This document shows positions 33-64,000 of a stretch of 64,000 nt of DNA, piece after piece. Each line of letters starts with the position of its first letter. Within the stretch, counting starts at the first letter, position 1. The DNA comes from Pteria penguin (lineage: Eukaryota > Mollusca > Bivalvia > Pterioida > Pteriidae), in NCBI GenBank assembly GCA_035048485.1, contig CM068589.1, positions 6,504,224 to 6,568,223 of the forward strand, written 5' to 3'. Position numbers and translations under genes: made by a program. The notes under the pieces were generated by a model that did not search any database, was not told the origin of the DNA, and was given only the letters and a program-made list of their open reading frames with translations.

Positions 33-350
33 CTCCGGTTACGGTTAAGAAAGTCGTTCCACTTGTTGCGGTTCCCACTGGGTTAGAAGCCGAACATCGA
101 TAATATCCCTGATCGCTATTGAGCACACCGCCGATGGTCAGAGAAGGTGAACCAGGGGTACCGCCTGTGTATCGACTCGTACTGTTTATTAAAACCAAAT
201 TGGGATTTGGGTTGTTCGCAGTAGAGGAGTAGAACCAGCGAACTTGATCCACCGCTGGTACAGGAGTGTTGGTAATATTACACGGTATAACGATGGTAGA
301 GGTTTGTAGGGCGGAATACGAAGAACTTGGAATAGAGACGACCGGCACAT
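33..350 (-). CDS. Ig34 exon, Ig-like domain (single exon)
   Basis: This is the last domain in the window and, at 318 bp (106 codons), the longest exon. The acceptor is ttgcag and the donor is ggag|gtatat; both borders are phase 1. The Ig core is visible: Cys near residue 24, Trp near 39, and D-Q-G-Y-Y-R-C with the second Cys near 86. The extra length lies in the C-C' region after W-F-Y, which is rich in Asn and Pro. The family motif reads RYTGG then SPSLTI. Two sequons (NIT, NST) fit an extracellular domain. The gene must continue beyond the left edge because the donor is intact and no stop codon lies in frame before it. Confidence 0.9.
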
Positions 351-924
351 CTGCAATTACACACAATTTACAGCAATTAAACTTGCTTTCTGTCATAGAA
401 CTTGTCAACAAAGTTATCAGAACATATCACCTATATTTGACATTTCTAGTCTGCCATGAGTAAACATCTTAAATTTACATGTGTAAGTTACTGAATCAAT
501 AATTAAAAGTGCAAAATTCAATATTAATGTCAATGCAGCGACGGAATTTTTCATCTCAGCGGTAGATATAGACTTAATGTTTCAAATTTGGTTTCTAGAG
601 GTAGACCATCTCAAACAATTCAACCTCAAATTCTACCTATGTTCATAAATCATCTCCCTACATTACAGAACACTTGCTAAATTCAATTAACGTAACAAAG
701 ATCTTTGAATTATTGTAATACATACTAAATAATATTTACAATGAAAGTATGTACCCTATAGTGTCCTATCCACGTTAATTGAATTTCTCTAACAATTATT
801 CAAGACAGTTTTCTACTGTTAGCTTGGCTGAATTTAGACTTTTCTCAAAGATAGAGATATTAATCTTAAAACAAGTATATTACATTATAAACCTCTTCAT
901 TTTTTTATTTACATGCAAACATCT

Positions 925-970
925 ACTGTGACAGTGGGATTTGAACCCAGTACCTCTTAGCCAAAAAATA
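925..970 (-). repeat. tRNA-like SINE remnant (possible)
   Basis: The plus strand reads ggatttgaacccagtacc; on the minus strand this is an internal pol III box B-like string (GGGTTCAAATCC), followed outward by a short tRNA-like stretch. No full element is recognisable around it. It is probably an old SINE head. Confidence 0.35.
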
Positions 971-1194
971 GAGTACAGATGTGTACAGAAGTTATTGTAT
1001 ATACAGTCTATAGAAATGTCATAAAACTTCTGTTTAATATGATAACTATTCTTTATGGTCTAAACATTAAGTTCATCGGTATACTTGTATTGCTACAAAA
1101 CAAATCTGAGGGAAGCTGAGTATGAACTTCATGCTAAAATAGTTAACACCAGAAAAGGTAAAGAAAACCTTTGGCAATGGTAGCCATAAAAGCA

Positions 1195-1345
1195 ATTCAC
1201 ACTAGAGGTAAAACTTTAAAAGGTATTTATACTAGCGATAAAGCAATTTATGCTAGCAATAAAGAAATTTATGCTAGCTATTAAAGACTTCATGCTAGCA
1301 ATGAAGAAATTATTGCTAGCGAATGATGGAATTTATATTAGCAGT
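1195..1345. repeat. Degenerate short tandem repeat (about 25 bp)
   Basis: Variants of atgctagcaataaagaaatt recur about six times with substitutions and small indels. The repeat lies inside the intron between Ig33 and Ig34. Confidence 0.6.
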
Positions 1346-1628
1346 AAAGGATTAGCATTACAGGATCGAATGAATACTTGAGGTAAATGGTACATATATA
1401 TACACTACAAGTAAAATCACTAATAGTGGTTAAAGCACAAGCCTAGTCCATGTAGTTAAAGGCTCACATATTGTTAGTAATATCCTACTTGTGTTAGTCA
1501 TGTAACATACAAGGAGCTAGCACTAGCAGTCTAGCAGGTTATACAAGCTCCTCTTGATACAAGACTTATGTTCATGTTATTATCAATGCACCCTTTTTCC
1601 TGTTAGTATAAACTGGATAATCATGTAC

Positions 1629-1750
1629 CTTGTCTACCATCTATCTAGTGGGAAATAAAATCCAAGTACAATCATACAATGCTGGTGTTGTGATCCCACA
1701 GGAGATGGTCACACTCTCATCTCCATAAACACTATTTCTCTGTATAGGTT
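1629..1750 (-). pseudogene. Decayed first-half Ig exon (pseudoexon)
   Basis: The minus strand reads an Ig N-terminal half: Y-G-D-E-S-V-T-I-S-C, eleven residues, then T-W-I-L-F-P, followed immediately by an in-frame TAG. It aligns with the first halves of the split domains Ig30 and Ig32 (S-V-T/L-x-G-x-S-x-T-I-P-C ... Y-W-V-F-D-P-S-G). An AG (ataaaag) precedes it and a GT follows it (acaag|gtacat), but the enclosed 122 bp is 44 bp shorter than the intact 166 bp halves. No matching second half was found between here and Ig34. I read it as a remnant of a third copy of the split domain. It could instead be a chance reading frame, but agreement at Cys, Trp and the following F-P makes that less likely. 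Confidence 0.6.
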
Positions 1751-3254: not shown

Positions 3255-3566
3255 TTCCAGTGATGTTCAGCATCACATCCGAACTAGATCCCGTTCCAAC
3301 CAAGTTAGTGGCAGTGCACGTGTATGTACCCTTGTCGGAATCTTGTAAGGTAAAAATTGTCAGAGAAGACGTGGCCAAATTACCACCAGAATATTTTTGA
3401 GAATTTGTTGAGGAATTAATTGTCTGTGAACTGCCACTGGGAGGTTGGAAAATCCATGAGACGGATAAAACTGCTGGCGTCGCCGTGGAAACAGTACAAC
3501 CGAGGGTGATATTTGAATTTTTGAGGACGGAGTGTGAGGTTTGACTAACGGTGACGTTAGGCTGAT
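3255..3566 (-). CDS. Ig33 exon, Ig-like domain (single exon, no internal Met)
   Basis: This 312 bp exon (104 codons) is easy to miss because it has no ATG-led frame covering it. The acceptor is tttttag|atcagc and the donor is ggaa|gtaagt, both phase 1. It starts Q-P-N-V-T-V and carries the first Cys in ITLGC, Trp in VSWIF, the family motif KYSGG, D-K-G-T-Y-T-C for the second Cys, and LNITG at the end. After the Trp it keeps a Pro/Ser/Gly run (QPPSGSS) like the split domains Ig30 and Ig32 (FDPSGSGS), so it may be an unsplit relative of them. It has several sequons (NVT, NIT, NSS). Confidence 0.9.
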
Positions 3567-10879: not shown

Positions 10880-11185
10880 ATCCATTCACAGCAAAATTTA
10901 TTTCGCCACTCTGTCCAGTTCCAGCAAGATTGATAGCAACACAGACATACAACCCTGCATCATCAAAATCTATACTTTTGATTTCTAGCGACGGATACGA
11001 AATATTCATCCCACCATATTTGGAGGCGTTTGTCGCAGGATAGATAAAGGTGCTGCCGCCACCGCCCGTTTTTTGCCAGTAAACACTTGTCGGGGCTGGT
11101 AAGCCAGTAACATTGCACTGGAGTGTCACGTCAGTGCCATACATGGCAGATTGAAAGTTACGGAAGACTGTTACCGTAGGTGGGC
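10880..11185 (-). CDS. Ig31 exon, Ig-like domain (single exon)
   Basis: This 306 bp exon has acceptor tacctctag|gcccac and donor ggat|gtaagt, both phase 1. The Ig core is clear: VTLQC, SVYWQK, D-D-A-G-L-Y-V-C-V-A-I-N. The family motif is changed to KYGGM then YPSLEI. It ends V-N-G rather than L-D-V-x-G. Three sequons (NVT, NAS, NIS) are present. Its closest relative in the window is Ig29 (PTVTVF start, VYWQK, D-F/N-D-D). Both sit immediately upstream of a split domain, showing a duplicated two-domain module. Confidence 0.93.
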
Positions 11186-17770: not shown

Positions 17771-18076
17771 ATCCAGTGATGATCAGAGTTGTCTCCCCAC
17801 TTTGCCCAATTCCGACGGAGTTCTGAGCAATGCACGTATATATGGCCCCATCATCAAAATTAACTTCCCGTATATATAGAGAGGGCCATGTAGGAGTCAT
17901 GCCTGTAAAGCGTTCCGAACTATTACCCGGGAAAATCAATGTTTTGACTCCACTGGCATGCTTCTGCCAGTAGACAGCGCTAGGTGCTGGGTTTGCGCTC
18001 ACAGAACATTGTATAGTGGCATTGGTACCATACACAGCTGTTTGGGAGGGGGTGAAAACAGTCACTGTGGGTAGAC
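17771..18076 (-). CDS. Ig29 exon, Ig-like domain (single exon)
   Basis: This 306 bp exon has acceptor tttcccag|gtctac and donor ggat|gtgagt, both phase 1. It reads L-P-T-V-T-V-F, ATIQC, AVYWQK, the family motif changed to RFTGM then WPSLYI, and D-D-G-A-I-Y-T-C-I-A-Q-N with the second Cys. It ends LIITG. Sequons NAT and NSS are present. Its paralogue is Ig31: same length, same donor base (T), same VYWQK, and the same place just upstream of a split domain. Confidence 0.93.
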
Positions 18077-18760
18077 CTGGGAAAACAAGCATATTTATCC
18101 AAAGAGAAAAATCATCTATAAATTTCTGTTCTATATTACTTACATTTAATACTTTTTTCTTTAAACGATTTCTTTCACTATCTACAAAACTCTCAGATAA
18201 AACCTGTAATATTTCATTCTTTGTGTAAAGGTTTCCCTTCTTTTATAAAATTAATTTGACTTCAGTCTAAAATATTATCGAGTTTCATCATTCTCTAGAT
18301 ACAGACATTTTCATGCTCTACTTTAAATGAACTGATGTATATTCCATTAGCGTAATTTTTCAGATTAACTGATTTAATACAGAAACAAAAGTGATCAAAT
18401 TAACTTGATATGTTTTGAAATTACAAAGATGTAATTTTAGACTTTATATCTGTTTTTGTTTATTATGAAGACAAGTTTGAAATTTAAATATGTTTGGAAT
18501 TACAAAAAAGTTATTTTACACATGACTTGTTTTCTGCTTTTGTTTGTCATATGAAGATTATTTTCTAAAGTCTCATAAAATGACCCGACATTTAATGACC
18601 CAACATTTAATGACCCTACATTTAATTAAAATTTTCAACAGAAACATCGATGCATTACAATGATCAGGCTAAAAGTACAGTACATCTAATTCCCCTCTGA
18701 ATAGTAGAGCTATTCAACTTGATTTAATAAGACCTAAATTTTTTTGACATTTATTTTAGG

Positions 18761-18917
18761 CTATCATTTTGTAGACATTTCACAATTTCCATATTTTACA
18801 CTATCACTTCATAGATATTTTACAATTTTCTGATTTTAGACTATCAGTTTATAGATATTACACAATTTTCATATTTCAGACAATAACTTTGTTGATATTT
18901 TACAGTTTTCATATTTT
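18761..18917. repeat. Degenerate 40 bp tandem repeat, 4 copies
   Basis: Variants of actatcagtttatagatatt followed by acaattttcatatttta repeat four times. Confidence 0.75.
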
Positions 18918-45011: not shown

Positions 45012-45311
45012 TTCCTGCAACATTCAAATATGTTGAACCACTTTGTCCAGTTCCTAAGGAGTTGGTTGCCTGGCAACTGTAGCTACCTTCATCGTCAAGG
45101 GCAACATTGGATATAGTCAAAGAAGGAACGTTGACAGTGGAGCCACTATACTTGGCCTCAGTCATATTGATATTGACTGTGACTCCATTCACCACCCTGG
45201 TCCAAGACACGGAAGTAGCAGAAGGCGTTGCTATGACAACACACATCAAGGTGATAGTCCCTCCCACATTAGCATTATAAATGATTTGCTGAATATCAAC
45301 AGAGGGTATGG
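45012..45311 (-). CDS. Ig13 exon, Ig-like domain (single exon)
   Basis: This 300 bp exon has acceptor cctttag|ccatac and donor ggaa|gtgagt, both phase 1. It reads I-P-S-V-D-I, ITLMC, SVSWTR, KYSGS then VPSLTI, D-E-G-S-Y-S-C-Q-A-T-N and LNVAG. One sequon (NMT). It is the 5' member of the pair with Ig14. Residues before the internal Met include the A strand. Confidence 0.93.
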
Positions 45312-47752: not shown

Positions 47753-48052
47753 CTCCAATTACATTCAGCGTTGTGTTAGCCGGAGATGATGAACCCACTG
47801 AATTGGTTGCCACGCATGAGTAAGTTCCACTATCGGATGTCTGGACATTGCTAATGGTTAGCGAGGGCGTGCTAACAGTACCACCTGAATACCTTGACAG
47901 CTGAACGTTTATCGTCGTCACTACGCCATTCGATGAGCGTCGCCAAGTGATACTGGATGCAGATGGCGTAGAAGAAACAAAGCATTGCAGAGTGACTGAA
48001 TTACCAATGTTAATGTTGTACTGGCTCTGGGAAACAGAGGTCTGAGGCAGAT
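47753..48052 (-). CDS. Ig12 exon, Ig-like domain (single exon)
   Basis: This 300 bp exon has acceptor atttgtag|atctgc and donor ggag|gtaaga, both phase 1. It reads L-P-Q-T-S-V-S, VTLQC, SITWRR, RYSGG then TPSLTI, D-S-G-T-Y-S-C-V-A-T-N and LNVIG. One sequon (NTT). It is the 3' member of the third exon pair (with Ig11, 455 bp intron). D-S-G rather than D-E-G is shared with the 3' members Ig10 and Ig14. Confidence 0.94.
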
Positions 48053-48507
48053 CTACAAATATTTTAATTAGTGCAAAAATCACACACACAAACTAGTACT
48101 AACGTTAGCTTTTGTTATTCCTTATTTTCTCTGTGACCAACAAAACTTGATTCTTCAATTTAAAGCAACTGGGTATATTTCTGTCAAACAAATAAAAACT
48201 GATTTTCAATTAAATATTTTAGTTTTTCTAACACCCAAATATACAAATTCAAAGAATCTTGCTTTATGGTCAATTAATTATACAAAACAATTCTCTCTTT
48301 ATTATAAACATTTTCGTTTAACATCTCTTTCCTCCTAATTTTGCAAAAAGGTATAAAAAATTTATAATTGGAAATGTCATCCTCATTCTCTCAGGAAATA
48401 CACACAAATAGCGAAAATATGTTTATAATTAGAGAGAATTGCATATTCTTTCGAATAAATAAACGCTCACATCATGTCAGTTAACCGTGCTGTCACACAT
48501 GACTTAC

Positions 48508-48819
48508 CCCCGATGACGTCAAGCGTAATGGGGCTCCCTTGAGCGGAACCCACAGAGTTAAGAGCATTACAAATGTATGTCCCTTCGTCTGACAATGTCA
48601 GAGAAGATACAATCAAGGAGGCACTATTGGTAGTGACCCCAGAGTATTTTGCTGATGACAACACCGATGTCGAGGTGATATTGAAGGCTACACTGTTTAA
48701 GGTCACAGTCCAATAAACAGTAGTGACAGAAGGAGTTGCGCTTGCTGAGCACTGAAGCGTGACAGTTGAGCCGTAGTTTTGTGAATAGAAGGTTTGAGGG
48801 ATGACAACGCTGGGAGTAT
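48508..48819 (-). CDS. Ig11 exon, Ig-like domain (single exon, long form)
   Basis: This 312 bp exon has acceptor ccttcaag|atactc and donor gggg|gtaagt, both phase 1. It reads T-P-S-V-V-I-P, VTLQC, TVYWTV, KYSGV then SASLIV, D-E-G-T-Y-I-C-N-A-L-N and LDVIG. The C'-D loop is three or four residues longer than usual, and the PSLTI core is changed to ASLIV, making this the most divergent unsplit domain in the right half. One sequon (NIT). Confidence 0.93.
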
Positions 48820-49569
48820 CTTGAAGGAAAAGAAAGCATGCTATAAGATTTCTATGGGAGAACAAAAAAGGAACAGAACAGGTGTTCACATTACAAGAAA
48901 TATTGGACTGCCCCACAAGTAGAATTTATCTCATAAAGAGCCTGCAGAGCTGTTTTCTTGTTATGGTCAAAATTTCTCAAGATTATCACAATGTTGATGC
49001 AGTAGCAACAATTACCTTTTTCAAGATTGTTTCAGTGTAACTTAATGTATTTCAAGTAGAGTTACCTCCCTTTCAAAAAAGAAAACTCAAGTTAGATCCC
49101 TCCCTATGATTTCTATAAAAAAAAACTTCCAGCAAAAGCAGATGTTTTTTTCTGTAGCCAAATTAAACATCTTTATAAATCTCTGAACTAGGTGGATGAG
49201 ATACCTCTATCAACATAGAACATTTCATATCCATACATATAAGGTGTACATAATACACACGTTAGTTATCAATGCAATGTACAATTTATCTTTCCTTATT
49301 AACCATGAAATGAACACATATAATATCAAATTTAATCTTGATATTGAAAAATATATAAATTGCAAATATTACAAAAAAACAATTAGAAAATATATCAAAA
49401 TAAAATTATTGAAAAAAAAAACACCACACCATTAAGAAACTTTAGATAATGCTATATAAAAAACATACCAATCAAGTAGAAAAATTGAGAAAATTAGAAG
49501 TTCTTTACTTGTTATTTCATTAGATACAGAGAAGAGCTACTGATGTTAATCATTTTGAAACATGTATAA

Positions 49570-49795
49570 TGTATGTGGCACTCGCTTTTCACCAATGGGA
49601 CGCAGGTTCAATTCCTAGTGTGGTGCGCAAAATGGTGGGGTTAACACCAATCCGGCTTTGTGGGTTTTCTCCGGGTACCCCGGTTTCCTCCCACACAAAC
49701 GACACCCTACGTAAAGATCTGTGCCAACGAGCAAGATTTACATGTATATAAGTTTTTAAGTTGTTTCTTTATCGTTGTAAAATAAATAAAGTTTA
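49570..49795 (+). mobile_element. SINE-like element with box B and gggttttctccgggtacccc motif
   Basis: The plus strand has a tRNA-like head (tggcactcgctt, then box B-like ggttcaattcc), a body with ggttaacaccaatccggctt and ggtttcctcccacac, and a tail gtaaaataaataaagttt. The body motif is, to my knowledge, widespread in mollusc genomes. The short repeat acatgtata occurs on both sides (near 49560 and 49740) but the second copy lies before the tail, so it is probably not the target duplication. Confidence 0.7.
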
Positions 49796-51259
49796 AGTTT
49801 AAATTGAATAGATGTATAATTAATGGAAAATAAACACATTTTTATGTGAGATAATGTAATGTTAAATAATGATACGATAATTTTTGATTATTTTTGTAAT
49901 TTTCACACATGATGTTTTTATTATTAAAATTATGTGCTAGCATATGTTAATAATATAAGTGCAGACTTACACAAAATATTTCTTATTTTCATTTTTTGAT
50001 AAACATTTAATCTTTTTAAGACTTTTGATATGTTTAATTCATAGATTTTTAGAACGGCTTATTTCCATGATTTATTGCTTACTACTTATAGTTTTGCTTA
50101 TAAAATGACGAGAGTCAGACTTGATAGATGGTTTGGCGGGTAGACAATCTGGAATCTATGCTCAGGTGAGCCACTCACTGCCCACTGTGTATAAGTTACA
50201 GCAGGTAACCTTCCTGCTGCACTGTTTTTCTAATTCATGAAAACAAAGTGGTAATCATGGTAGAGTTTATAGTTTCTTGAGGTGGGAAGGAGTTCTGATC
50301 CCTATCAGTGTCAGAGTCACGATTATTTCCTGTACTTTTATCATGGTAACCGATGTATTACTATGGAAGGCACAGGAAAACTCAGTGGTGTAACATTTCA
50401 CTGAATGGCTGTAGCTGCCATAGCTGTTTAAATGAGCGACCATATGAGACTAAAGGGAGCAGATCCAAAACCTCACTGTGCCAGTCAACAACTAAGTCAA
50501 AGGACATTCCATGAGAGGGAATAAAATTGGGCAATAACTACCAGACAGTAGCAAAGTCACTAAGAATAATACTAAAAAAGAAGCAATGATAGTACCAAAC
50601 AGCGAATACTAAATTTCTTAAATGCAATACTGAATACGGGGTAGTCGACAACCCCTTGATGGCACCAAATGGCAAACGGTAGCAAGGTCGTTACGTACAA
50701 TACTAAACAAGGGAACAATTACTGATAATAATAGTCAAAATAACCATACACAGATCATGTTCTAGATCCTCAAAAATCCTCTATTCTAATGGGTTTTTTT
50801 AAATGGCATCTTTCCTTATACATATTGTATGCTCTTAGATTGACTTTTCTGTTGCGTGTTGCAGTGTTTTGCTAGTGTTAATCCTACATAGAGTGAGGGC
50901 ATCAAAACAGTATTAATTCTGATTTAAACCACACTGCCACAGCGTTATCCAAAACTTTCTTCTTCACTATACCATGAGAAACCATGAATTACAAGATTAT
51001 ATTAGTGAATACATGCAACATGTAAATTACAACACCAAACCGATTGAAATTAGGCCCCAACAAAAAAACAAAAAGTTATTAAAAAAAAATTACATGCATT
51101 TGAGATGAATAAAGCATATCAGCACAACCAAAAACCTATCTGTTAGGATGATATGACTCCAGGGTTCTCAAAAACAACTTAAGTCTGCCTCCAGTTTAAA
51201 ACAGATAGTGCCTTAGTTCTGCATGCCTGTAACAAGGTCAGGAATGTGCCATGCAGCAA

Positions 51260-51372
51260 CAACAGTTACCATATCCCGATGCCATGTGCCGATGGCAGTT
51301 GCCATGTACCAATGGCATGTGCCACTGGCAGTTACCATGTATTGTGACATGTGCCATGTGCCGATGGCATTC
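51260..51372. repeat. Short interspersed repeat of atgtgccgatggca
   Basis: Variants of gccatgtgccgatggcagtt recur about six times without strict spacing. Confidence 0.7.
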
Positions 51373-51649
51373 TGAAACTCAGAGGAAGATTCTGTTTTAT
51401 TCGCTGCAAGGGAATACAGAATAACAAATGTAACGAACTGACATTTTTAGGTCCTCGTAATATATTTTCTTTTTCATACTGCTGGTTTTGTAACTGTTGG
51501 AGTCACCACAGATGGCAAAGTCCCAGATAGTACATGTAAACACCACATTTTGAGAACCCTGTTTGATGGCGTATACTTAATATGTTATTGCTACTGGTTA
51601 CTAATATCAATCTAGCCATGCAACATTCTATTTATAGATTTCTACTCAC

Positions 51650-51955
51650 TACCAATGACATTGACAGTGGTCTGCCCGCTGAGAGCGGTTCCTGCAGCAT
51701 TGGTTGCCGAACACACATAGAAACCAGAGTCTGATTGGACCAAATTGAATATCGTCAATGAGGGATTGTTTATTGTGCCTCCAGAATATTTGCTTGGATT
51801 TCCAGCAATGTTCAAAGAAGTTGATTGGCTGTTTACTATGTGTTGCCATGCAACCGATGTGGCACTTGGATTTGATTGGACGACACAGTTGATGGTGAGG
51901 GTGTCACCAAATGTCGGCGTATAGGAAGATGTAGGAATGTTGACTTGCGGTGTAC
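51650..51955 (-). CDS. Ig10 exon, Ig-like domain (single exon, no internal Met)
   Basis: This 306 bp exon lacks a Met-led frame; it is seen only by translating from the acceptor cctattag|gtacac to the donor ggta|gtgagt, both phase 1. It reads T-P-Q-V-N-I-P, LTINC, SVAWQH, KYSGG then NPSLTI, L-V-Q-S-D-S-G-F-Y-V-C-S-A-T-N and VNVIG. Its F-strand region (NLVQSD) is shared with Ig8. It is the 3' member of the second exon pair (with Ig9, 432 bp intron). Confidence 0.93.
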
Positions 51956-52387
51956 CTAATAGGAAAATTTTAAAGTAGCTAGCCTAATGTGAAAGTAGCA
52001 TGTCTAAAGTGAAAGTAGCAAGGTATAGCTCATCTCTAGCATGTGAATTATGTGCTTTTAAAACATCAGAACTTAAAGAATAGTGAACTTCTTAAACTAT
52101 ACTTCATCATATGTTTTAGAAACAGATCAGACAATGAGGATTTCACTTTAAATCATCAGGTTTTTTTAAGGGTCTTTTACAGAAATACAATTTTTACATG
52201 GGCTGATCAACTTATTCTTTGAATGTCAAGATTGTGATAACTATTGATCCTTTTTATCAACTTACAAAGCAAATGTACCAATTTCATATGTATGCATTCA
52301 GTGTATGTTAGATTTTTTTTTAAATTGATTAAGTATCTTTTCATGTAAGAACCAAACACACACACACAAAATTAATCTTCAACCTAC

Positions 52388-52690
52388 TTCCAACCACATC
52401 GAGGAAAGTATCTCCACTCAAAGTTGTCCCCACACTGTTGGTGGCCCCACATTTATAAGATCCCTCATCTGAGAAATCTACGGAAGTGACAGTAAGGGAA
52501 GGCTGCGATGGCGTACCACCACTGTACCTGGAGTTGCCACTTACTGACAGCATTGTATCGACGCCACTCACCACTCGATACCATGTTATGGAGGTGGCGC
52601 TAGGGGTTGCAGAAACTAAACACACTATGGTGACGCTGCCAGCGTAGTTGACAGGGTAGGAGGAACTTGGTATAGAGACACTAGGAGCAC
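52388..52690 (-). CDS. Ig9 exon, Ig-like domain (single exon)
   Basis: This 303 bp exon has acceptor ttatgtag|gtgctc and a less usual donor ggaa|gtaggt, both phase 1. It reads A-P-S-V-S-I-P, VTIVC, SITWYR, RYSGG then QPSLTV, D-E-G-S-Y-K-C-G-A-T-N and LDVVG. Residues before the only Met include the A and B strands. It is the 5' member of the second exon pair. Confidence 0.93.
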
Positions 52691-54713
52691 CTACATAAAA
52701 GATGGTTTACTAACATCCTGGGACTTGATGCAGCAGTGATGTGCCTTAATTGGCTTATTTTATGCTAACACTGCATTTGGTATTTGACCATCAAAAATTG
52801 AACAAAATGGAAAATATACCACCATTTATTTATCTTAACTTGTAATTAAAAACTTGTTCTGACCAAATTTATTTCAAAATAGCAGTAGGATGGTAGAGAT
52901 GCCAAAATATTTCTCCATTTTATTTATATATATATTTTGTTTGTTTTGTTTTGTTTGTTTGTTTGTTTATTCAAATTCCACTTTTTTATTTTCCTTTCAT
53001 TTTTTTTTTTTTTTTGGCGGGTAGTAGATTTTCTAAAAAGTATTAAGAAATTAGAACAACATGTATTAAAAGTTTCATTAATATTCATTATTTTTTATAC
53101 AGTGTTACATCTCTACCACACTTTTACCAGTTATCTCCCTTTCCATGATAAACCATCACTGATTATACAAATCTTTATGTAAGATACTGCGACCCTCGAC
53201 TATAGAATATGAATGTTGAGCGTCAAATTTCAAATACAGTGTTAAATGCACAGCACTTTAACATCTTGTCCCTTGATTTCTTTCAAATCAAACCGGAAAT
53301 ATGAGGTCACAGTTCATAAAAGTAACTTTGAGGTTTAAAGACAAATATATAAAGAAATAAAAAACTTCAAAATGAAGCATATAATACTATCATTAATGTT
53401 CAATACAACAACTCTGGTTATAATGAATATTTCAATTACATATTTTATTGATTGTAATGTTTCAAAAGACAGCAGTAAGCTTTTTCCAGTTTGATATGAA
53501 TTATTAGCTACAGAAAATATCGCATGCAAAAATAATGAGGATTCAGGTAGAACATGCTGCAGGAGGCATATGCAAGAAGGATACATCTTATTGAATTATA
53601 AAACTACAGCATGCAAGGAAAGATAACTCTTCATAGTATAATTGATAGAAGGAATGATAGAATGCTAAGGGGTATAACTCTCACAAAGTTTGACTCAATG
53701 TCTCTTCATATCACAATTTTTGCAAGCCTGTACATAAATGCATATATATCCCTCCAAATTTGTCAAAATAATACAAGAAATCAGCTGAAATAAATTCAAA
53801 ACATTAGCTGAAAAGAAAGATACAAATGTTACCAAGAACATAAAAATACTGGTACCACACAAAGCTATAAATGCTCAATATTTCATTCACGTCTATACCA
53901 TTGATGACAATTATCGCGAGTAGTTTACAGCTAACGATGCTCTACTTTCATCAGTCTTTATCTTATACCGCGATGAAACGAGAGGTTTTTATCTACAACG
54001 CTCTATACTGCCAGTAGAAGGAAGTGCAGTGTCAACAAATAAATTGATGATTCTCCTAATTCTTTAGTTACAAAACTTAAGCCATAAGACTTGCTAATCA
54101 TTCTGCATGTTTGACCTATACCTGACCTATACCTGACCTGTGATGCTGTAACTGTTATTATCTCATTAATAATGAAATGGTAATCGAAGATGCAGACATG
54201 TTAAATATATAGATAAAACCCATACATACAGAAATATATAGATAAAACCCATACATACAGAAATATATACACAAAACCCATACATATATATAGTGAGTAT
54301 ATAGGTACAACAGTATATAAAGTAAGATATGAAAGTAACACATGTCTGCAAACAGAAAATGAAAGTACAGCATGTAGTGGCAAATGGAAAGGAAAAAACT
54401 CCATCACGCTCCTAAAATAACATAAAACTATATACGATATACGATGATTAATATGATGGTATGATAAATCATGGAATTCTTCTGGATCATAAAGCTAATA
54501 TGATATGGTAATGTTAGAAGGCATTTGTGGAGAAAGTCGGAAGCAGTCAAGTTTGTTACTTTGCAAAAACAAAGAGAACTCTTCAGTATTAGAAGTTATA
54601 TTCACTCATGTCATAAAACCAAGTGCCTGAATAAAACTCAGTGGAGCTCTTCAATGATTAAGGTGGAATTAACATCCACATCATGTGATCACAAGTGAGT
54701 GCTCTATACTCAC
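52691..54713 (-). other. Intron between Ig8 and Ig9
   Basis: This 2,023 bp phase-1 intron has a T-rich and TTTG-repeat stretch near 52.94 kb and a 31 bp repeat near 54.2 kb. Nothing else is recognised. Confidence 0.7.
54215..54292. repeat. About 31 bp tandem repeat, 2-3 copies
   Basis: The string aaaacccatacatacagaaa followed by tatatagat repeats in a row; overlapping minus-strand open frames (VWVLSIYFCMYGF) come from it. Confidence 0.85.
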
Positions 54714-55019
54714 TGCCCACTACATCTAAAAATGCTGTAACGCTCGTTCCCGTGCCAACAATATTGGTAGCCTGGCATAAATAATTTCCCTCGTCAGATT
54801 GAACCAGATTATTAATGGTCAGGGAGGGTGTGTTAAGGTTTCCATTATTGTACTTTGACGACCCGGACGGATCAATGGTAGTAGAGACACCATTAGGGAG
54901 GATTCGTTTCCAGGTAACGATGAAAGCAGATGGTTCAGAGGTCACCCGACACTCTATAATGGCTTGGTCACCAAGGATACCAGTGTAGGTAGCGACAGGG
55001 ATAGTAACAACAGGTGTGT
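54714..55019 (-). CDS. Ig8 exon, Ig-like domain (single exon)
   Basis: This 306 bp exon has acceptor aactctcag|acacac and donor ggca|gtgagt, both phase 1. It reads T-P-V-V-T-I-P, AIIEC, IVTWKR, KYNNG then TPSLTI, L-V-Q-S-D-E-G-N-Y-L-C-Q-A-T-N and LDVVG. The SGG of the family motif is changed to NNG. It is the 3' member of the first exon pair (with Ig7, 461 bp intron). Confidence 0.93.
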
Positions 55020-55480
55020 CTGAGAGTTACAAAAAAGACTAGAATTTTTATATGTAATTGGATAAAAAAGTTAATTCATTAGAAAAGGATTTGTTCAGGA
55101 TAAAAACAAACTGATTCCAAATATTGCAGAGGTATAATGAAGTTTTGTTTCTTAGATTGTAATAAAATTATTAAAACCATCATCTTTTTGTCTGTATATG
55201 TCTAAGTATATTTACTAAATACAAAATATGAATTTTCTCACGTTAAAATTATTTTTCTTTAGAATTGTTCAAGTCACTGAACAAAAAGGATAAAAGATGG
55301 GTGTTCATTAATAGAATCAGAAAAAAATTAGAAAAAAATATTTCAGGCAGTAGGGCTTAAGTAATGTAAGTTGACATTATACTTTAAAAAGGTCAAGGGG
55401 AAGGGTCATTATCTTAGTTACCATTCAAAGGAGCAGTAATTATTCAAGTCAAATTATACAGAGAGATTTGTTTTACTCAC

Positions 55481-55786
55481 TTCCCAAAACATCTAGATAT
55501 ATATCGGCACCGGTCCCTACGCCTGCATCGTTAGTGGCCGAGCACACATAAACCCCTTCATCAGATGTGGCTATGTTATTTACTGTAAGAGAGGGTTCTG
55601 ATACAGTCCCTCCACTATATTTAGTGGACCCTGCACTCAATCCTATGACAGATGTGACTCCGCTTACTGTGCGTTGCCAGGTAACGGAAGAAATAGACGA
55701 GGAAGAAGAAATATTACAGAGAAGCGTTACACTATCCCCTACAGAAGCTGTGTAGGTCAGATTGCTGGCATCTATGGAAGGCAAAG
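55481..55786 (-). CDS. Ig7 exon, Ig-like domain (single exon)
   Basis: This 306 bp exon has acceptor attttttag-type (tatttttag|ctttgc) and donor ggaa|gtgagt, both phase 1. It reads L-P-S-I-D-A, VTLLC, SVTWQR, KYSGG then EPSLTV, D-E-G-V-Y-V-C-S-A-T-N and LDVLG. Sequons NLT and NIS. A 55 bp duplication copies the start of the exon and its acceptor into the intron, so a second candidate AG exists 55 bp upstream; using it would shift the frame. Confidence 0.93.
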
Positions 55787-55858
55787 CTAAAAATAAGCAA
55801 AACGACATAGGTCAGATTGCTTACAACTATGGCAGGCAAAGCTAAAAATAAGCAAAAA
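55753..55858 (-). repeat. 55 bp tandem duplication across the Ig7 splice acceptor
   Basis: The block taggtcagattgct ... gcaaagctaaaaataagcaa occurs at 55753 and again at 55808, an offset of 55. The second copy has a few changes. It duplicates the first exon bases and the ag acceptor (cttatttttag|ctttgcc on the minus strand). Confidence 0.92.
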
Positions 55859-57622
55859 GAAGTGCTCAAATTTAAAAAAAAAAAAACAGACTTCCTAACT
55901 CCAATTCATATTTCTAAGATTATTTTTCTGTAAATTTATCGATGTTTTCGAACTCACATAAAAACATTCTGAAATTTCCTATTATACAAAGTTAAATTTA
56001 CCTTATCAAATTTTACATTAATGTATTTACTTTTTATTTCACATTAAACATTTTGAGCACTTCTCTTTCCATTAAAGATGAAGACTACAGTACCTTAACC
56101 TTTTGTTATATTGCGCCATACATGACATTTTAACAATAAATAATAAACTTGTGTGGAAGCTTTGACAAAAGCTCTTGATACAAACCCTTCAGAAATCCAT
56201 TAATGAAAATCACAAGTAGGGATTGTATCATGATCATTTTTAACAAAATCATCAGGAAATGAACATATATTATGTAACAATCAGGGACCACTTCCTCAGC
56301 CATGTCATGTATGAATCAATAGCGACATATTTCTCTGTTCTAGATGTATACATGTATTATAAATACAAGGGTATCATACTCTGTCATGATATAGCAAGTT
56401 GCTATTGTGGAAGTCAGAGTAATATACTAGCAACTACACTATACATGTATGTGTGCAATGCACAGAAAGTAGAATGACATGTGAATAAAGCACACAAATA
56501 ATGTCGCATGTATCACTCTGATTACATGGCGATCATGATGCAAAGAAAGGAGAATGACATGTGAATAAAGCACACAAATAATGTCGCATGTATCACTGAT
56601 TACATGGCAATCATGATGCACAGAAAGGAGAATGACACGTGAATAAAGCACACAAATAATGTCCCATGTACCACTCTGATTACATGGCGATCATGATGCA
56701 CAGAAAGGAGAATGACGTGAATAAAGCACACAAATAATGTCCCATGTACCACTCTGATTACATGGCGATCATGATGCACAGAAAGGAGAATGACATGTGA
56801 ATAAAGCACACAAATAATGTCCCATGTACCACTCTGATTACATGGCAATCATGATGCACAGAAAGGAGAATGACATGTGAATAAAGCACAAATAATGTCC
56901 CATGTACCACTCTGATTACATGGCGATCATGATGCAGAGAGGGAAAAACAGTATAAAAATGAACAAGTGTAAATTATATAACATTATATGGTCAAGAATA
57001 AGATGTGGAGACTGTACAGAGAAAAGTTAATGTAACTACAATACCACAATCATATAAATGATACCTGATTAACAATCAAATGAGGTGACCAATCACCAAG
57101 CAGAAGAAACATGTTAAATATTTAGGCACAGAAAATCCCCCCTTTTTTTGAGTGACCTTCTAAAATCATGCTACATACAAAAAATTAAGTTCCATTCTGG
57201 CCTCCAAATATAGATAATATTGGGTTCTGTCACCTCCTTTTCCTTTTTAATTTGCTTCGAAGAAAAATATATTGTCAGCATGAATGAATAATAATACTAT
57301 AAATATGGCGTATTACGATGAAGTATGTGTAATATAATAAACTAACTTAAATTCTTTGACTAGACAGAATACGCTAAGAAATATCATAGTATTTAAAGCA
57401 ATACATGATATTCACTACGATGAAATGTTGACATGTACAATAAATGGCAGACATATGTATTCATCAGCTGTATGACCTTGGGTTGATTTTATTCTTAATA
57501 GTAAGACTGAACCCTTCCATTCTATTAACCACGCAGTATGACAAAATGATTCCCCAGAATTTTTCCAATTTTAAGTTTGGTATGAGATATGATAGATTCA
57601 CCCTTCACCTTTGCGTACTTAC
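55787..57622 (-). other. Intron between Ig6 and Ig7
   Basis: This 1,836 bp phase-1 intron contains the duplicated acceptor segment at its 3' end and the 79 bp array at 56440-56940. Otherwise nothing is recognised. Confidence 0.75.
56440..56940. repeat. 79 bp minisatellite, about 6 copies
   Basis: The unit runs gaatgacatgtgaataaagc, acacaaataatgtcccatgt, accactctgattacatggcg, atcatgatgcacagaaagga. Six copies differ by small deletions and substitutions. Minus-strand open frames (CVLYSHVILLSVHHDRHVI) are products of the repeat. Confidence 0.93.
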
Positions 57623-57925
57623 TGAGAACATCCAGGAATGTTTGTGCCGTCGACCCTTGACCTATATTATTGGAAGCTGAGCAGAAGTATGTTCCTTCGT
57701 CAGATTGCTGCACGTTGGTTATCGTAAGCGTTGGGTTGCTGACTGTACCGCCACTGTACCTTGACGAAGAACTTATGACGACGGTACTGGTTACCCCACC
57801 AATCTGTCGTTGCCAGGTGATGGAAGTCGCAGCTGGATTTTGTGACGTAATTGAACAAATCAGGTTGGCTGTGTTACCAGCCATCACACTGTAGGAGCTG
57901 GAACCAACCTGAACAGTGGGAGTGG
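57623..57925 (-). CDS. Ig6 exon, Ig-like domain (single exon)
   Basis: This 303 bp exon has acceptor tttttttag|ccactc and donor ctca|gtaagt, both phase 1. It reads T-P-T-V-Q-V, ANLIC, SITWQR, RYSGG then NPTLTI, Q-Q-S-D-E-G-T-Y-F-C-S-A-S-N and LDVLS, with Ser in place of the terminal Gly. The first 12 codons precede the internal Met. Confidence 0.92.
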
Positions 57926-59542
57926 CTAAAAAAATGATTGACAGTTAACATATCTGCATACATATTTATATTAAGAAGGATATTTAGATGGAATATGAAG
58001 AGAATAACATGACTATGGAGAGATATATAAACTACAGCTATAGTATTATGACTAGCAATATCATAGACATTAGTTCCATACCCTGCATTTGAAATCATCA
58101 TGAAGAAGACCTTTCTGCCAATCAGTATAGTGAATGATGTAATACTGTCTGCTGATTGGCTGATACTGAGTATTCCTCAAGAGGACTTCAAATGTATGCT
58201 ATACCCATGCTATATCAAAATCTTTTTAAGGAAAATTGGATGACAGAAGCCATGACTTTGAATTTCTGCTTATTTCTCACTTTATTGTATACGATGCTGC
58301 ATTTATTATATCTGAGAAAAAATCGACAATTTCTGAACAGGGGAGAAATCAAATATGGCCAAATATCAAGACTGATGTATTAATGAAAAGGTGTGTGCTC
58401 TGGAAGGTGTCTGAATTGAGAAGTGTCTAATTTTGAAGTGTCTAATTGAGAAGTGTCTAAGTTTGAAAATAAATATTTAAATACACTGAATTTCTACTTG
58501 AAAGCAAAGCCACAACAAGGAAATGTACAAGACTTATTCAAAAGGAGAGCTTTGAAAAATATAACATAATGTATATAGTGCAAAGGTATAGCGGAACACA
58601 AGACTGTAAATCCACTTGTTTTTGTGAGAACTTTAATTTCCCATAAATTTGCAATTTTGTCTCCATTTTGACAAAACTAAACCTTCAACAATAATGAGCC
58701 ATCCATGATTTCATTACTAAACAGCAAACTGAATATTGTTTCTCATATAAATTACATATTACCAAATTAACCCAAAGTGAGATTGAAATTTTTGCGTAAT
58801 TAAAGCCACACTAAATATAAGAGCTTCACAGTATAAATACTACATATAGACTAGGCAGATATAATTTACAAGTTTGTTCCGTCATGGCATTCGTAACAAT
58901 TTCCGAATCGGTTATTTTTCCAGGAAATTATGGTTCATTTAGTATCTAAATTGTTGGACTTACAGTATTAAAGCATATGTGTTCTCTAGGTTCAGGAATT
59001 TGAACCTCCAATGTTTGAGATGGAAGGTAAAGGGAATAATGTAATTTGAGACATCAAGGGGGGTTTACTTCTCAGGAAATAGCTGATGATGTCTTCAACC
59101 ATGACTGAACAAGTACAGCGAAGCTTACCAAGTGTCATACAAATGAATAAATGTTGATATAGTATCTATAATATACTAGAAATTAATAAAAGTGTTAAGT
59201 TTTTTTAGATGACAAGGACCCATCAAATTTGGAAGTCTTGGATTTCTTTAATAAAGATTATAAACTTTCAACTAAATGTTCTGTTTACATTGCCCTGAAA
59301 TAATTTCACATTCTAAATTTCAAATTTTGATCCCATTTGCCATAATCAAACTACTAAAATTCTGAGAAAACAATCTCAAACTATTTTGTTTATATTAATC
59401 AATGGTTAAAATTTTGTGTTTATTTTATTTCCAACTTATGACTGTACATGCAAAATTTCATTTTCATCGAGATTTCCCTTCCGCAAAATTGATTTTTTAT
59501 ACACGTATTTACACTCCCACTGATTTCCACACTAACACTTAC
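57926..59542 (-). other. Intron between Ig5 and Ig6
   Basis: This 1,617 bp phase-1 intron has a minor three-fold gaagtgtctaa repeat near 58.42 kb; nothing else is recognised. Confidence 0.7.
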
Positions 59543-59845
59543 ACGCTAGCACATCAAGGTAAATGGGTGTACTAGAGCCTTTTCCTACGCTATTTTGTGC
59601 CGAGCATACATAAGAGGCTTTGTCTGTGAGATCAGCATTGAAGATGACAAGTGAGGGAGAGCTGATCACACCTCCTCCATATTTTGATTGGCTACTAAAG
59701 TCTACTGGTGATGTAACGCCACCTACAGTTCTTGTCCATGAGACTGAGGTCACGGAAGGAATGGCGTTAACTGTGCACTGAAGCGTAACAGAGCTACCGT
59801 AGTTAACTGTGTAGTTATTTAGAGCTACAGAAATGGAAGGTATAC
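59543..59845 (-). CDS. Ig5 exon, Ig-like domain (single exon)
   Basis: This 303 bp exon has acceptor catttag|gtatac and donor gcgt|gtaagt, both phase 1. It reads I-P-S-I-S-V, VTLQC, SVSWTR, KYGGG then SPSLVI, D-K-A-S-Y-V-C-S-A-Q-N and LDVLA, with Ala in place of the terminal Gly. D-K-A-S replaces the usual D-E-G-S before the F-strand Tyr. One sequon (NYT). Confidence 0.93.
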
Positions 59846-60669
59846 CTAAATGGAGAGATGTCAAGAGTTATCTACCTTGCAGGAACTTTTCTATGTTAGT
59901 TAGATATATAATTTCTACTCTTCCAAAATGCAGTATCAAAATATCTACTACTCAAGAAGAAAGAAATCATTTCATAACATTAAATTAAGTACTAGTAACG
60001 TATAAAATCGAGAGTAAAGCTAAATACATAAAGCACTCTGAATATAAAGATAAAATACAGATTGAAAAAGGTTATATTTGCTAGTGATGACTGTGACTAT
60101 AAAAGAAAGAATGTTTTACAATGGATTTATAAAATGAAGGATATTATCATATATACAGCAAGTTCATTTAAGTTCAATATACCAACTGAAAACTGCAAAA
60201 TAATCAATAATTTCATTTTTTGAGAAAACTGATTAATTAATTAAACAGACACGAGGTACATAATCTCCTATCATCAATCATGACATTTTTTTTTCACATT
60301 GTTTTACACAACCCCAAGACTTAAATATATAGTGTCAGTATCAATATGAGACACAACAGCAATCTTGACTTATGCATCGAACCCAAGAGAAACAGTGACG
60401 TATCTTTTATCTCCATTTTAACTGTCTCGGCTCATTTGAAAGACGAGCAACAGCGAGATGCCAGTCAGGTTCAAACCCAGGACCTCTTTGCCGAGAGACC
60501 AGCGAGCTACTGCAACAGGTGTTCTGAGAAGATATGCCGTCATACAGAACTATAAGGGATCATGTTATACAGTTATCATAGAAAAGGGACTGTATCATGA
60601 AAATTTATCTTATAAATAAACAGAATGAACCATCTTTTTTTTCCAAATTTTTTAGAGATTCACACTTAC
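59846..60669 (-). other. Intron between Ig4 and Ig5
   Basis: This 824 bp phase-1 intron contains a degraded SINE-like segment at 60345-60535. Confidence 0.7.
60345..60535 (-). mobile_element. Degraded SINE-like remnant
   Basis: On the minus strand a tRNA-like string (gctggtctctcggcaaagag then box B-like gggtttgaacc) is followed by gagacagttaaaat, which recalls the gagacagtaaaaac of the three SINE copies. The rest is too changed to align by eye. Confidence 0.5.
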
Positions 60670-60969
60670 TTCCGACTACATTGAGAAAAGCTGCTCCACT
60701 ACTTCCCTGTCCTACAGAGTTAGAAGCCCTGCATACGTAGCTCCCCGCATCGCTGGTCTGTACATTGAATATGGTGAGAGAAGGGATGCTAACGGTACCA
60801 CCACTGTACTTAGCCGTGTTAACAAGATTCAGTGTGGTGGTCACACCATTAGTGGTTCGTTGCCAAGAAATGGATGTGACAGCAGGGTTACCAGACACAG
60901 AACAGGTTATAGTTGCAGAAGAACCAACTGTTGGAGAGCTACCACTGCCAATTACCACAGATGGCACAC
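60670..60969 (-). CDS. Ig4 exon, Ig-like domain (single exon)
   Basis: This 300 bp exon has acceptor ttttccag|gtgtgc and donor ggaa|gtaagt, both phase 1. It reads V-P-S-V-V-I, ATITC, SISWQR, NGVTTTLNL, KYSGG then IPSLTI, D-A-G-S-Y-V-C-R-A-S-N and LNVVG. Its start (IGSGSSPTVG) is Gly/Ser-rich, like that of Ig3 (TGNGATVTIG). Confidence 0.94.
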
Positions 60970-61151
60970 CTGGAAAACGAAAAATGTTGTTGGTTATGTA
61001 CATGATATGCTGTGAGGCTTTGCGCTAACACAGACTTCATGTTGACTTCCTCATCTTACATCATGACAAGACTACTTTACTTATGTGGTGACTGCATCTT
61101 AATTAACTCAAATAGTCAATTAATTAATTAATCTGGGTGTGGTTGCTTCAC

Positions 61152-61214
61152 TGAATAAATTTAGAAGTCTACACAGTATAGAGAGGGAATCTGATGTCTA
61201 CATAGTGATTACAG

Positions 61215-61253
<39 letters not shown>

Positions 61254-61585
61254 CTGTTGTTTTACGTCACTCCACGATTATTTCATGTATATGGTGACAG
61301 CATCTGCCTGATGCATTACGTAGAAATTTATACCTTTGCAACGGACCCATCCAAAGCAGTGAGGTGTTTTTTAAGTGCCACGCCTACCGTGATATGGGAC
61401 CTTGGTTTTTACTGTCTCATCCGAAAGACTGAACACCAGTGTGCCCAGGGTGGGAGTCCAACCCGGGACCTCTCGATCTCAAGCCAAGCACCTTATCCAC
61501 TTGAACACACTGGCTTGAATAAGTTTAGAAGTCTATACAGTATACATAGAGAGGGGATCTAACGTCTACATAGTCATCACAGTGA
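61152..61585. repeat. Pair of roughly 65-70 bp direct repeats flanking SINE copy C
   Basis: The sequence tgaataaatttagaagtcta ... tctacatagtgattacagtga (61152-61215) recurs after the SINE as tgaataagtttagaagtcta ... tctacatagtcatcacagtga (61516-61585) with several substitutions and a small insertion. It is too long for an ordinary SINE target duplication; a pre-existing tandem repeat hit by the SINE is more likely. Confidence 0.8.
61217..61517 (-). mobile_element. tRNA-derived SINE, copy C
   Basis: This has the same body as copies A and B: on the plus strand an expanded (gatt)n tail at the low end, ttttacgtcactccacgat, atggtgacagcatctgcctg, agcagtgagg, tttttactgtctcatccgaa and, at the high end, a decayed tRNA head (cctctcgatc ... 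ccacttgaacacactggctt). It is in the same orientation as the other two copies and is more diverged than copy B. Confidence 0.88.
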
Positions 61586-61791
61586 GGGGATCCAAAACCT
61601 ACATAATGATAATCGTAAGGGGATCTAAAGTCTAATTTCAATAAGATTGACAGAATGTAATTCAACTTGCTACAATATGCAAGATTATCAGGTTAAAAGC
61701 ATTTGAATATTTCTATCTCAGTCCTGACTGTCACATTGCTACAATTATGCCAGCCAATGAGCCCCAAATGGGACTTGAACTTGTAAACTCT

Positions 61792-62210
61792 TAACCCTGA
61801 GCCAGGGTAGCTATTGACCTGCACATCACTACCTCATCTGACCTCTTCACCCTGAGCCAGGGTAGCTATAGACCTACACATCACTACCTCATCTGACCTC
61901 TTCACCCTGAGCCAGGGTAGCTATTGACCTGCACATCACTACCTCATCTGACCTCTTCACCCTGAGCCAGGGTAGCTATTGACCTGCACATCACTACCTC
62001 ATCTGACCTCTTAATCCTGAGCCAGGGTAGCTATTGACCTGCACATCACTATCTCATCTGACCTCTTAACCCTGAGCCAGGGTAGCTATTGACCTGCACA
62101 TCACTACCTCATCTGACCTCTTCACCCTGAGTCAGGGTAGCTATAGACCTACACATCACTACCTCATCTGACCTCTTCACCCTGAGCCAGGGTAGCTATT
62201 GACCTGCACA
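61792..62210. repeat. 55 bp minisatellite, about 7.5 copies
   Basis: The unit runs accctgagccagggtagcta, ttgacctgcacatcactacc, tcatctgacctcttc. Copies are nearly identical (ctattg or ctatag; gcacat or acacat). The array stops about 30 bp short of the Ig3 splice donor. Confidence 0.95.
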
Positions 62211-62243
62211 TTACTAGTTCTGATTTTTCATATTTTTTCATAC

Positions 62244-62546
62244 CTCCTTGCACATTCAGGAAAGCTGTGGTAGAACTTTGTCCAGTACCAACAGAATTGG
62301 ATGCCGAACATCTGTAATTTCCTTCATCAGAGTCTTGAACATTTGTTATGGTGAGTGAAGGGGTTGAGACGGTCCCTCCAGAGTAACGATTATTGCCTGC
62401 TATATTCAGGGTGGTAGTGACACCATTTAGCTCTCGAGTCCAGCTGACAGAGGTGTATGTAGGAAAACCAGAGATAGAACAAGTTATTGTTACTTGGTTG
62501 CCAATGGTTACAGTGGCTCCATTTCCTGTCACTACGGATGGTATGC
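62244..62546 (-). CDS. Ig3 exon, Ig-like domain (single exon)
   Basis: This 303 bp exon has acceptor tttttag|gcatac and donor ggag|gtatga, both phase 1. It reads I-P-S-V-V-T, VTITC, SVSWTR, NGVTTTLNI, RYSGG then TPSLTI, D-E-G-N-Y-R-C-S-A-S-N and LNVQG. The donor lacks the usual AAGT context and lies next to the 55 bp array. Ig2 is only 330 bp away. Confidence 0.93.
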
Positions 62547-62876
62547 CTAAAAAAGAAGGATTGTATGTAATTTTGTTCTGTTTTTCGTGCCACTTTTTAC
62601 TCGTGCCCTAGTCCATTAGCTTCAAGTACATGGCAATAAAGGTCTAAATAATTATATTCTAGAAATAATAAAGGAACAGATGCAACCAACTTTTTAAATC
62701 ATTTTCGTAATCAATCATGATACACTATAAAATATAATCAGAACAGAGTTTCATTTGAGATGGCAAGCATGCAGGTAGATGTACTGATACAGAATTTGAA
62801 ATCAAATATACATGAAGTAAAATCTTTCACAGGTCCACGATCTACATTGTAACTATGTTTATCATAATTTACTCAC

Positions 62877-63182
62877 TTCCTGTAACATCTACGAAGACAC
62901 TCCCACTACTGCCTGTGCCGGCAGAGTTCACAGCCTGACACTGGTAACTACCCTCGTCACCAAGCTGTGCGTTTGTGATTGTCAGACTCGGTGTGGAGGT
63001 GGTACCTCCAGAGTACCGACTGTTACCAATGATGGACACCGTGGAGGTGATGCCATTTACAGTACGTCTCCATATAACAGCTGTAGCAGAAGGATTGGCA
63101 GAAACGGCACATCCGATGGTGATCGTGTTGCCAATGGCAACAGAAAGAGGGGATTGTGAAGTAATAGATACAGATGGTAGAT
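62877..63182 (-). CDS. Ig2 exon, Ig-like domain (single exon)
   Basis: This 306 bp exon has acceptor ctcttcag|atctac and donor ggaa|gtgagt, both phase 1. It reads L-P-S-V-S-I-T, ITIGC, AVIWRR, RYSGG then TPSLTI, D-E-G-S-Y-Q-C-Q-A-V-N and VDVTG. It is close to the family consensus throughout; no sequon is seen. Confidence 0.94.
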
Positions 63183-63906
63183 CTGAAGAGAAAAAGTCGA
63201 ACAATTGTACTAAATAGATACATCGTAAATATGTTTTGACAAATAATTTCTTTTGTATGGTAAAATAAACCAACTTATTCCTAAGACAACCTGGTTGCGA
63301 TTTTGTGATTTCCAAATTCAAAGAGTTATAGAACATGACGGGACAATTTTAAGAAATTTGTATGCTTATCAACATCTCAGTAAACACATTTAGTATAATT
63401 AATTTTGAGTTTTGAGTAATAGATTTCAGGGAAATCTATAAAAGCTGGCGACATGAGAGCTGGGACATCATTTCCCTACCCTTCCAATTGTCTGTTTCAC
63501 CCAAATATAATAATTTCCAAACTTTTTATGCAAATAACAATTTGTTTTATCTTGACTTTCAAAACAAATTTATCATTTAAAATTTAAAATACACTAGTTA
63601 TTCTTTCTTTCATAAAATGTTTTGAAAAAATATATATATTTAAAAGAGTAACACCAAATTTCAAACTATATATAGTTAATTGCTTCCGACATGTCGTACT
63701 TTAAATTCTGAATACTACGGTAATCTTAAATCTCTTTCCCTCAGAGGAAATCAATTGTCCACCATGTGCTATCACACTTAACAATGCCTACCATAATGGC
63801 AACATTGTTCAGATGATTGGCTGTCTGAATGACTTTCATTGCCAATAACAAAAATGAGCAAATATTTTTTTTGGTTTTACAAAATTTTTCTTTGACGACG
63901 ACTCAC
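63183..63906 (-). other. Intron between Ig1 and Ig2
   Basis: This 724 bp phase-1 intron is AT-rich with nothing recognised. Confidence 0.7.
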
Positions 63907-64000
63907 TTCCAACAACGGTGAGGGTAGACAGTCCACTCTGTCCAGTGCCGGCACTGCTAGTGGCGGTACATCGATAACTTCCCGCATCACTAGTTGCTGC
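63907..64000 (-). CDS. Ig1 exon, C-terminal part of Ig-like domain (cut by window edge)
   Basis: The visible 94 bp reads S-D-A-G-S-Y-R-C-T-A-T-S-S-A-G-T-G-Q-S-G and ends LTVVG with donor ggaa|gtgagt in phase 1. This is the E-F-G part of an Ig domain in the same frame and phase as the others, so the gene continues to the right of the window. The first Cys, the Trp and the acceptor lie outside. Confidence 0.9.

Follow-up and report, generated by a model that had tools for sequence, protein, structure and literature searches.

The stretch of DNA considered here (the window) comprises 64,000 nucleotides of the bivalve Pteria penguin, C10:6504224-6568223 within a genome of 838 Mb, and lies inside a single, very large gene built of immunoglobulin (Ig) domains. 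Coordinates below 1 or above 64000 continue the window numbering, and the contig position is the coordinate plus 6504223. A preliminary description, made from the letters of the window alone, had counted 36 exons on one strand and 34 Ig domains, and both counts hold: 36 minus-strand exons overlap the window, and they encode 33 complete domains (31 on single exons and two split over two exons) and one that is cut by the window end. All 34 carry the C-W-C signature and the strict D-x-[GA]-x-Y-x-C motif. The exons join into a single frame, with phase 1 introns between domains and, within the two split domains, a phase 2 intron at the identical place; the other 32 domains occupy one exon each and open and close in phase 1. 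As a strand control, the Ig motif pattern was run over 264 kb; all 38 matches fell on the minus strand, against zero on the plus strand. The remark that neither end of the gene had been reached is true of the window, and both ends lie within ~21 kb outside it.

To follow the gene outwards, 100 kb were fetched on either side and scanned for exons with splice-site and codon profiles built from 38 exons. The resulting model has 54 coding exons spread over 105 kb (Table 1) and encodes 4,595 residues in one open frame from ATG to stop, with matching intron phases throughout. The predicted protein has 42 Ig domains: behind a signal peptide come a pair of C2-set domains, 38 I-set/V-like domains in tandem and two I-set domains of shorter length. 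One transmembrane helix and a tail of ~297 residues complete it. A giant, extracellular, Ig-only protein, set apart from the titin family, hemicentin and Dscam, had been foreseen, and the modelled architecture of this bivalve mollusc gene bears this out. The suggestion that the protein could exceed 5,000 residues does not hold in the model for P. penguin; a scallop relative reaches 6,340. The extension recommended at the time brought to light the signal-peptide-like start and the transmembrane helix, and of the modules then to be sought (FN3, VWA, EGF and kinase) none appeared in the four pieces scanned with Pfam, which hold 12 of the 42 domains.

Table 1. Coding exons of the P. penguin gene, in order of transcription
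Feature	Coordinates	Strand	Remarks
Exon 1, signal peptide	84267-84168	minus	GTAAGT donor; in-frame stop four codons before ATG
Exons 2-3, C2-set Ig	82026-81727, 80865-80557	minus	
Exons 4-7, Ig	73084-72782, 68892-68590, 66271-65960, 65634-65329	minus	
Exon 8, Ig crossing the right window end	64215-63907 (63907..64000 inside the window)	minus	
Exons 9-36, 28 single-exon Ig domains	17771..63182	minus	all phase 1-1
Exons 37-38, one Ig split by a phase 2 intron	16584-16419 + 14729-14590	minus	
Exon 39, single-exon Ig	10880..11185	minus	nearest relative is the 18076-17771 domain (47% identity)
Exons 40-41, second split Ig	8376-8211 + 6509-6370	minus	closest to the first split domain (55% identity, intron at the same place)
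Exon 42, single-exon Ig	3255..3566	minus	
Exon 43, single-exon Ig, last in the window	33..350	minus	
Exons 44-45, two shorter I-set	-712 to -966, -2313 to -2558	minus	
Exon 46, transmembrane helix	-3743 to -3871	minus	hydropathy peak 3.8
Exons 47-50, tail	-4928 to -5066, -9162 to -9218, -10216 to -10290, -11513 to -11663	minus	
Exons 51-54, tail	-13293 to -13349, -15179 to -15241, -19659 to -19721, -20409 to -20687 (stop)	minus	

The scoring used in the exon scan had been trained on Ig exons. Of the 90 minus-strand candidates ranked best in the gene span, 51 coincide with modelled exons. The remaining 39 score at most 15.3, which exceeds four of the modelled short tail exons (7.8-14.3), so that additional short exons are possible. 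Plus-strand candidates score up to 20.2, several of them lying opposite Ig exons. The exons at -9162 and -15179 were included because oyster tails match them. The last four tail exons are entered in phase 0, each starting with I[IV]E, and three tail exons are of phase 0-0. The claim that no other domain type occurs in the 64 kb finds only indirect support in the candidate ranking and in the Pfam results; beyond the modelled exons, 122 open frames are listed in the gene span, and the Pfam scan was confined to its four pieces.

In those pieces Pfam assigns C2-set_2 (PF08205) to the first two domains and Ig_3/I-set and V-set to the rest. The N-terminal 337 residues and the C-terminal 569-residue piece, which predates the addition of two tail exons, give Ig families only. 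A profile built from the family detects 41 of the 42 domains; the second N-terminal one is recognized by Pfam alone. The best sequence match of the C2-set pair in the PDB is SYG-2. One window domain, folded with AlphaFold2 together with 30 sister domains, gave a predicted local distance difference test (pLDDT) score of 96.8. Its matches in the PDB include I-set and V domains alike: Foldseek places SIRP-alpha, CD147 and antibody V domains first, and in VIA-align basigin, RPTP-sigma, TCR and NCAM domains are tied. Comparison of the modelled structure thus favours neither the I-set nor the V-set for the repeats. The shape of a 10-domain model of the relative P0028 was set aside because of its predicted template modelling score (pTM) of 0.34.

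In protein searches, mollusc proteins mostly named ‘hemicentin-1-like’ come out on top, and coral, vertebrate and other Ig proteins match less well. Closest is a record from Pinctada imbricata (66% identity over 46% of the query piece). Twenty of 135 collected proteins, chosen by hand, were measured. A strong hydrophobic stretch follows the last Ig domain in all 20, and the Ig count by profile ranges from 13 (Pomacea, lacking a signal-like start) to 62 (Pecten P0074). We define a mollusc transmembrane family by the C2-set pair, the tandem Ig domains, the two short Ig domains, the transmembrane helix and a tail bearing VSR[KRQ]DV and RP[HY]xLPxL, and the P. penguin protein has them all. The same plan recurs in oysters (C. 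virginica, M. gigas, C. angulata, Ostrea and Saccostrea) and in Mytilus P0076; Pinctada P0075 agrees with it beginning at the third Ig domain, Littorina P0026 has a weak N-terminal match, and scallops and snails share it in part. The ‘hemicentin-1-like’ proteins P0075, C. virginica P0098, M. gigas P0104 and Mytilus P0076 resemble the P. penguin protein in tandem Ig array, two short Ig domains, transmembrane helix and tail, in the signal peptide and C2-set pair if the record includes a complete N end, and, for Pinctada, in domain order, but they differ in Ig number (35-50 by profile). The P0075 record is without its N end and has a doubled transmembrane stretch, and P0075 and P0104 are named otherwise in their sources. 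Precomputed Pfam lists of the relatives contain Ig families and a few others, e.g. PF02626, PF06465 and PF16657, that were taken as spurious. VWA (PF00092) is listed for two Saccostrea proteins, P0042 and P0050, neither of which shows a transmembrane helix.

The family profile was also applied to 12 other Ig loci of the same genome (L001-L008 and L029-L032), where the best domain scores 44.5 bits; complete single-exon domains of the long type in the gene itself reach 98-130 bits and the two short ones 44.0 and 48.7, all of these having served to build the profile. The sample is small, L008 and L031 being overlapping loci and L001-L006 members of a single C14 cluster. An Ig match at C14:8728625 sits inside an open frame of 4,106 codons, in a dense Ig cluster that looks titin-like.

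The array is old in P. penguin. Domains that are each other's best match follow the same order in 35 of 35 pairs with Pinctada (at most 13 when the order is shuffled), in 13 of 13 with C. virginica, in 10 of 11 with M. gigas and in 10 of 11 with Ostrea. The values for Pecten P0001 (6/7, null up to 6), Mytilus P0076 (7/10), Pecten P0074 (4/7), Pecten P0079 (3/6) and Littorina (2/4) are within the null range. Order is therefore conserved towards the oysters and is not detectable farther away. The two closest domains within the gene are 64% identical. For 17 of 41 domains the nearest relative lies within two places, against a null average of 4 and a null maximum of 11. A block of two domains, its internal intron included, looks duplicated; the split domains are 55% identical, with the intron at the same place. 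The array would thus have grown by local duplication, long ago in P. penguin. The preliminary description had suggested that the protein may be lineage-expanded. This calls for qualification: in P. penguin the array is old, and a recent expansion was rejected. One of the 41 profile-detected domains finds its best non-self match within the same protein, whereas 45 of 62 do so in Pecten P0074; the contrast is biased, since the comparison included a near relative (Pinctada) for P. penguin but no scallop of another genus for Pecten. The 64% maximum is independent of this bias. Relatives are found in bivalves and gastropods. Signs of recent duplication, in the form of domain pairs 97-100% identical, come from other lineages: two of three Pecten records (P0074 and P0079), Mytilus P0076 and three oyster records (P0098, P0104 and P0132).

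Motifs of the tail recur from pearl oyster to limpet. Of 26 mollusc tails, 17 contain RP[HY]xLP[AP][LIV] or a sequence close to it (shuffle frequencies <=0.05) and 13 contain VSR[KRQ]DV or a related form; the patterns were defined after seeing the tails, so that shuffle frequencies (0.00-0.10) are guides rather than tests. Batillaria P0138 was left out of the set, no transmembrane helix having been found. The limpet Patella and the snail Gigantopelta carry both motifs (Gigantopelta as PYQLPPL), and by eye the limpet also has the juxtamembrane stretch AICGK...KG[RK]VEP. Two corals and one mammal have neither motif.

The exon structure lends itself to alternative splicing. Forty of the 42 Ig domains each occupy one exon of phase 1-1, and equal end phases, together with the three 0-0 tail exons, mean that whole Ig domains and pieces of the tail can be dropped in frame, so that a cell could set both stalk length and tail content. 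Such variation is found among 33 NCBI isoforms of C. virginica compared with X1 (13 UniRef rows of the same species being left out): 10 have one, two, three or four Ig domains removed with cuts at domain borders, 22 have lost pieces of the tail (1-107 residues; one deletion or two), and the last carries a single residue difference, at position 34.

The gene is real and most likely single, and in the model it is complete. We consider it probable, at about 70%, that its product is a giant cell-surface receptor spanning the membrane once (type I), with an inferred function in adhesion or recognition and with a stalk and tail that can be adjusted by splicing. The membrane-distal, nephrin-like C2-set pair would be a ligand-binding head. 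With ~4 nm of length per Ig domain, the tandem stalk would hold this head some 150-190 nm from the cell. Binding by the head may serve cell-cell or cell-matrix adhesion or recognition, the tail may couple it to the cytoskeleton or to signalling, and splicing may tune the reach of the stalk and the content of the tail. Adhesion or recognition is the broad reading, of which immune inhibition and Dscam-like diversity would be narrower versions.

Several observations weigh against this reading. The gene model was drawn from genomic sequence, signal peptide and transmembrane helix were assigned by hydropathy and conservation, and the C. virginica isoforms are NCBI gene predictions, known as protein records. 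The proposed role is read from sequence. Both tail motifs are absent from eight of the 26 mollusc tails, those of scallop P0074, P0079, P0089, P0017 and P0019, Mytilus californianus P0008 and P0016, and Crassostrea gigas P0030; the five scallop proteins have short tails. In P0074, P0079 and P0089 the tail measures 84-85 residues, their precomputed Pfam lists name no C2-set_2, and there is no gap where it would stand; they may therefore be paralogues with another role. Lastly, the tail site resembling an immunoreceptor tyrosine-based inhibitory motif (ITIM) is within chance.

The labels in the databases suggest a true hemicentin, a secreted protein of the extracellular matrix, and the long Ig array and the many relatives named ‘hemicentin-1-like’ agree with this. 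Hemicentin is secreted and has VWA, about 44 Ig domains and EGF/G2F. Here, however, Pfam finds Ig families and no VWA in the N-terminal 337 residues, and in the C-terminal 569-residue piece no EGF/G2F but Ig followed by the membrane helix and a tail whose motifs are shared; by hydropathy the helix (-3743 to -3871) is also present in relatives. Another array, L030 (C7:43166000-43170999, i.e. 43.166-43.171 Mb), is hemicentin-like by eye, and its domains reach only 20.6-33.3 bits with the family profile. A hemicentin is thus very improbable, and so, to a like degree, are two or more neighbouring genes that merely look continuous. Introns of up to ~7.5 kb and a continuity read from genomic sequence leave room for the latter, but one phase chain runs from ATG to stop and the relatives (20 measured) are annotated as single proteins of 13-62 Ig domains by profile. 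The titin, twitchin and obscurin group is intracellular, and the signal-peptide-like start and transmembrane helix do not fit it; neither FN3 nor kinase was found in the four Pfam-scanned pieces. Full identity with hemicentin, Dscam or titin was rejected, the defining modules being missing from those pieces.

The narrower readings retain somewhat more weight. An inhibitory receptor of the oyster IgIT type, with an ITIM in its tail, is conceivable but unlikely. The ITIM-like [IV]RYETV is present in P. penguin, Pinctada and the five oyster species examined, with LKYQTI in Pecten P0001, and oyster receptors that combine Ig domains with tyrosine motifs are reported in the review PMC11999971. Shuffled tails, however, yield 0.28-1.03 such motifs per tail in proteins bearing one (0.63 in P. 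penguin, where IRYETV is present), and eight of nine Mytilus tails and the four transmembrane-bearing gastropod tails examined have none; the motif was rejected as firm evidence of inhibitory signalling. Doubtful to a greater degree is a Dscam-like receptor, in which splicing of Ig exons yields many isoforms for self/non-self recognition. The singly skippable Ig exons and the many C. virginica isoforms speak for it, but whole-domain skipping is seen there, not choice among alternative versions; within-gene comparison of domains, made on genomic sequence, found no array of near-identical Ig exons, and Pfam found no FN3 between Ig array and membrane in the C-terminal piece or elsewhere in what it scanned. 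A bolder form of the receptor reading is improbable, about on a par with the IgIT type: each cell would pick the length and composition of its ectodomain by skipping among ~36 interchangeable Ig exons, and its tail by skipping tail exons, for cell-cell recognition (immune or allorecognition). If true, it would join the exon choice of Dscam and the rearrangement of antibody genes as a third solution.

Repeats and open frames were also noted in and around the gene. The window introns hold 53 tandem-repeat rows, seven of them arrays over 500 bp (e.g. 14904-15945, 12974-13596 and 4238-4956). On the minus strand, -30540 to -30238 and -57078 to -56713 are near-identical open frames that would encode a short peptide rich in cysteine (eight residues) and, with its signal-like start, of secreted appearance. 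From ~-55.3 kb to -33 kb runs a long tandem array, probably a satellite, with units open on both strands, and between -99.7 kb and -71 kb the same open frame is repeated seven times in units of several kb. On the other side lie a large minisatellite open in several frames (114609 to 120705, units like DTPRRSPAFR), a plus-strand frame with, by eye, a tetraspanin-like CCG loop (136299 to 136667), and minus-strand reverse-transcriptase-like frames, probably a retrotransposon remnant (155376 to 156556).

Among the matches listed, no paper describes the family by title or abstract, subscription journals being largely outside the scope of the search. Two oyster papers (PMC13070813 and PMC9498863) read ‘hemicentin-like’ transcripts as matrix protein; if those genes belong to this family, that reading would need revision to a membrane receptor with a conserved tail. 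The bivalve and gastropod relatives form a natural series in which to ask why such receptors are so long and whether skipping is regulated.

Set beside known systems, the predicted receptor shares features with several. With hemicentin it has in common the long tandem Ig array, and with Dscam the character of a large Ig receptor at the cell surface, with splice isoforms in relatives. The oyster CgIgIT2, described in PMC11999971 with five Ig domains, a transmembrane helix and a tyrosine motif, is likewise a bivalve Ig receptor, but with five domains against 42 here. The N-terminal C2-set_2 pair (PF08205 over two stretches) is that of nephrin and SYG-2. These have about 8-9 Ig domains, and the FN3 next to their membrane was not found by Pfam in the C-terminal piece. 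Sialoadhesin (Siglec-1), found among the weaker matches (P0057-P0059), also combines a long Ig-only ectodomain with a transmembrane helix; it is a vertebrate protein of 17 Ig domains whose N-terminal, sialic-acid-binding head is a V-set domain, whereas the head here is C2-set. The family is named in databases after hemicentin, whose defining modules were not found in the scanned pieces of this protein.

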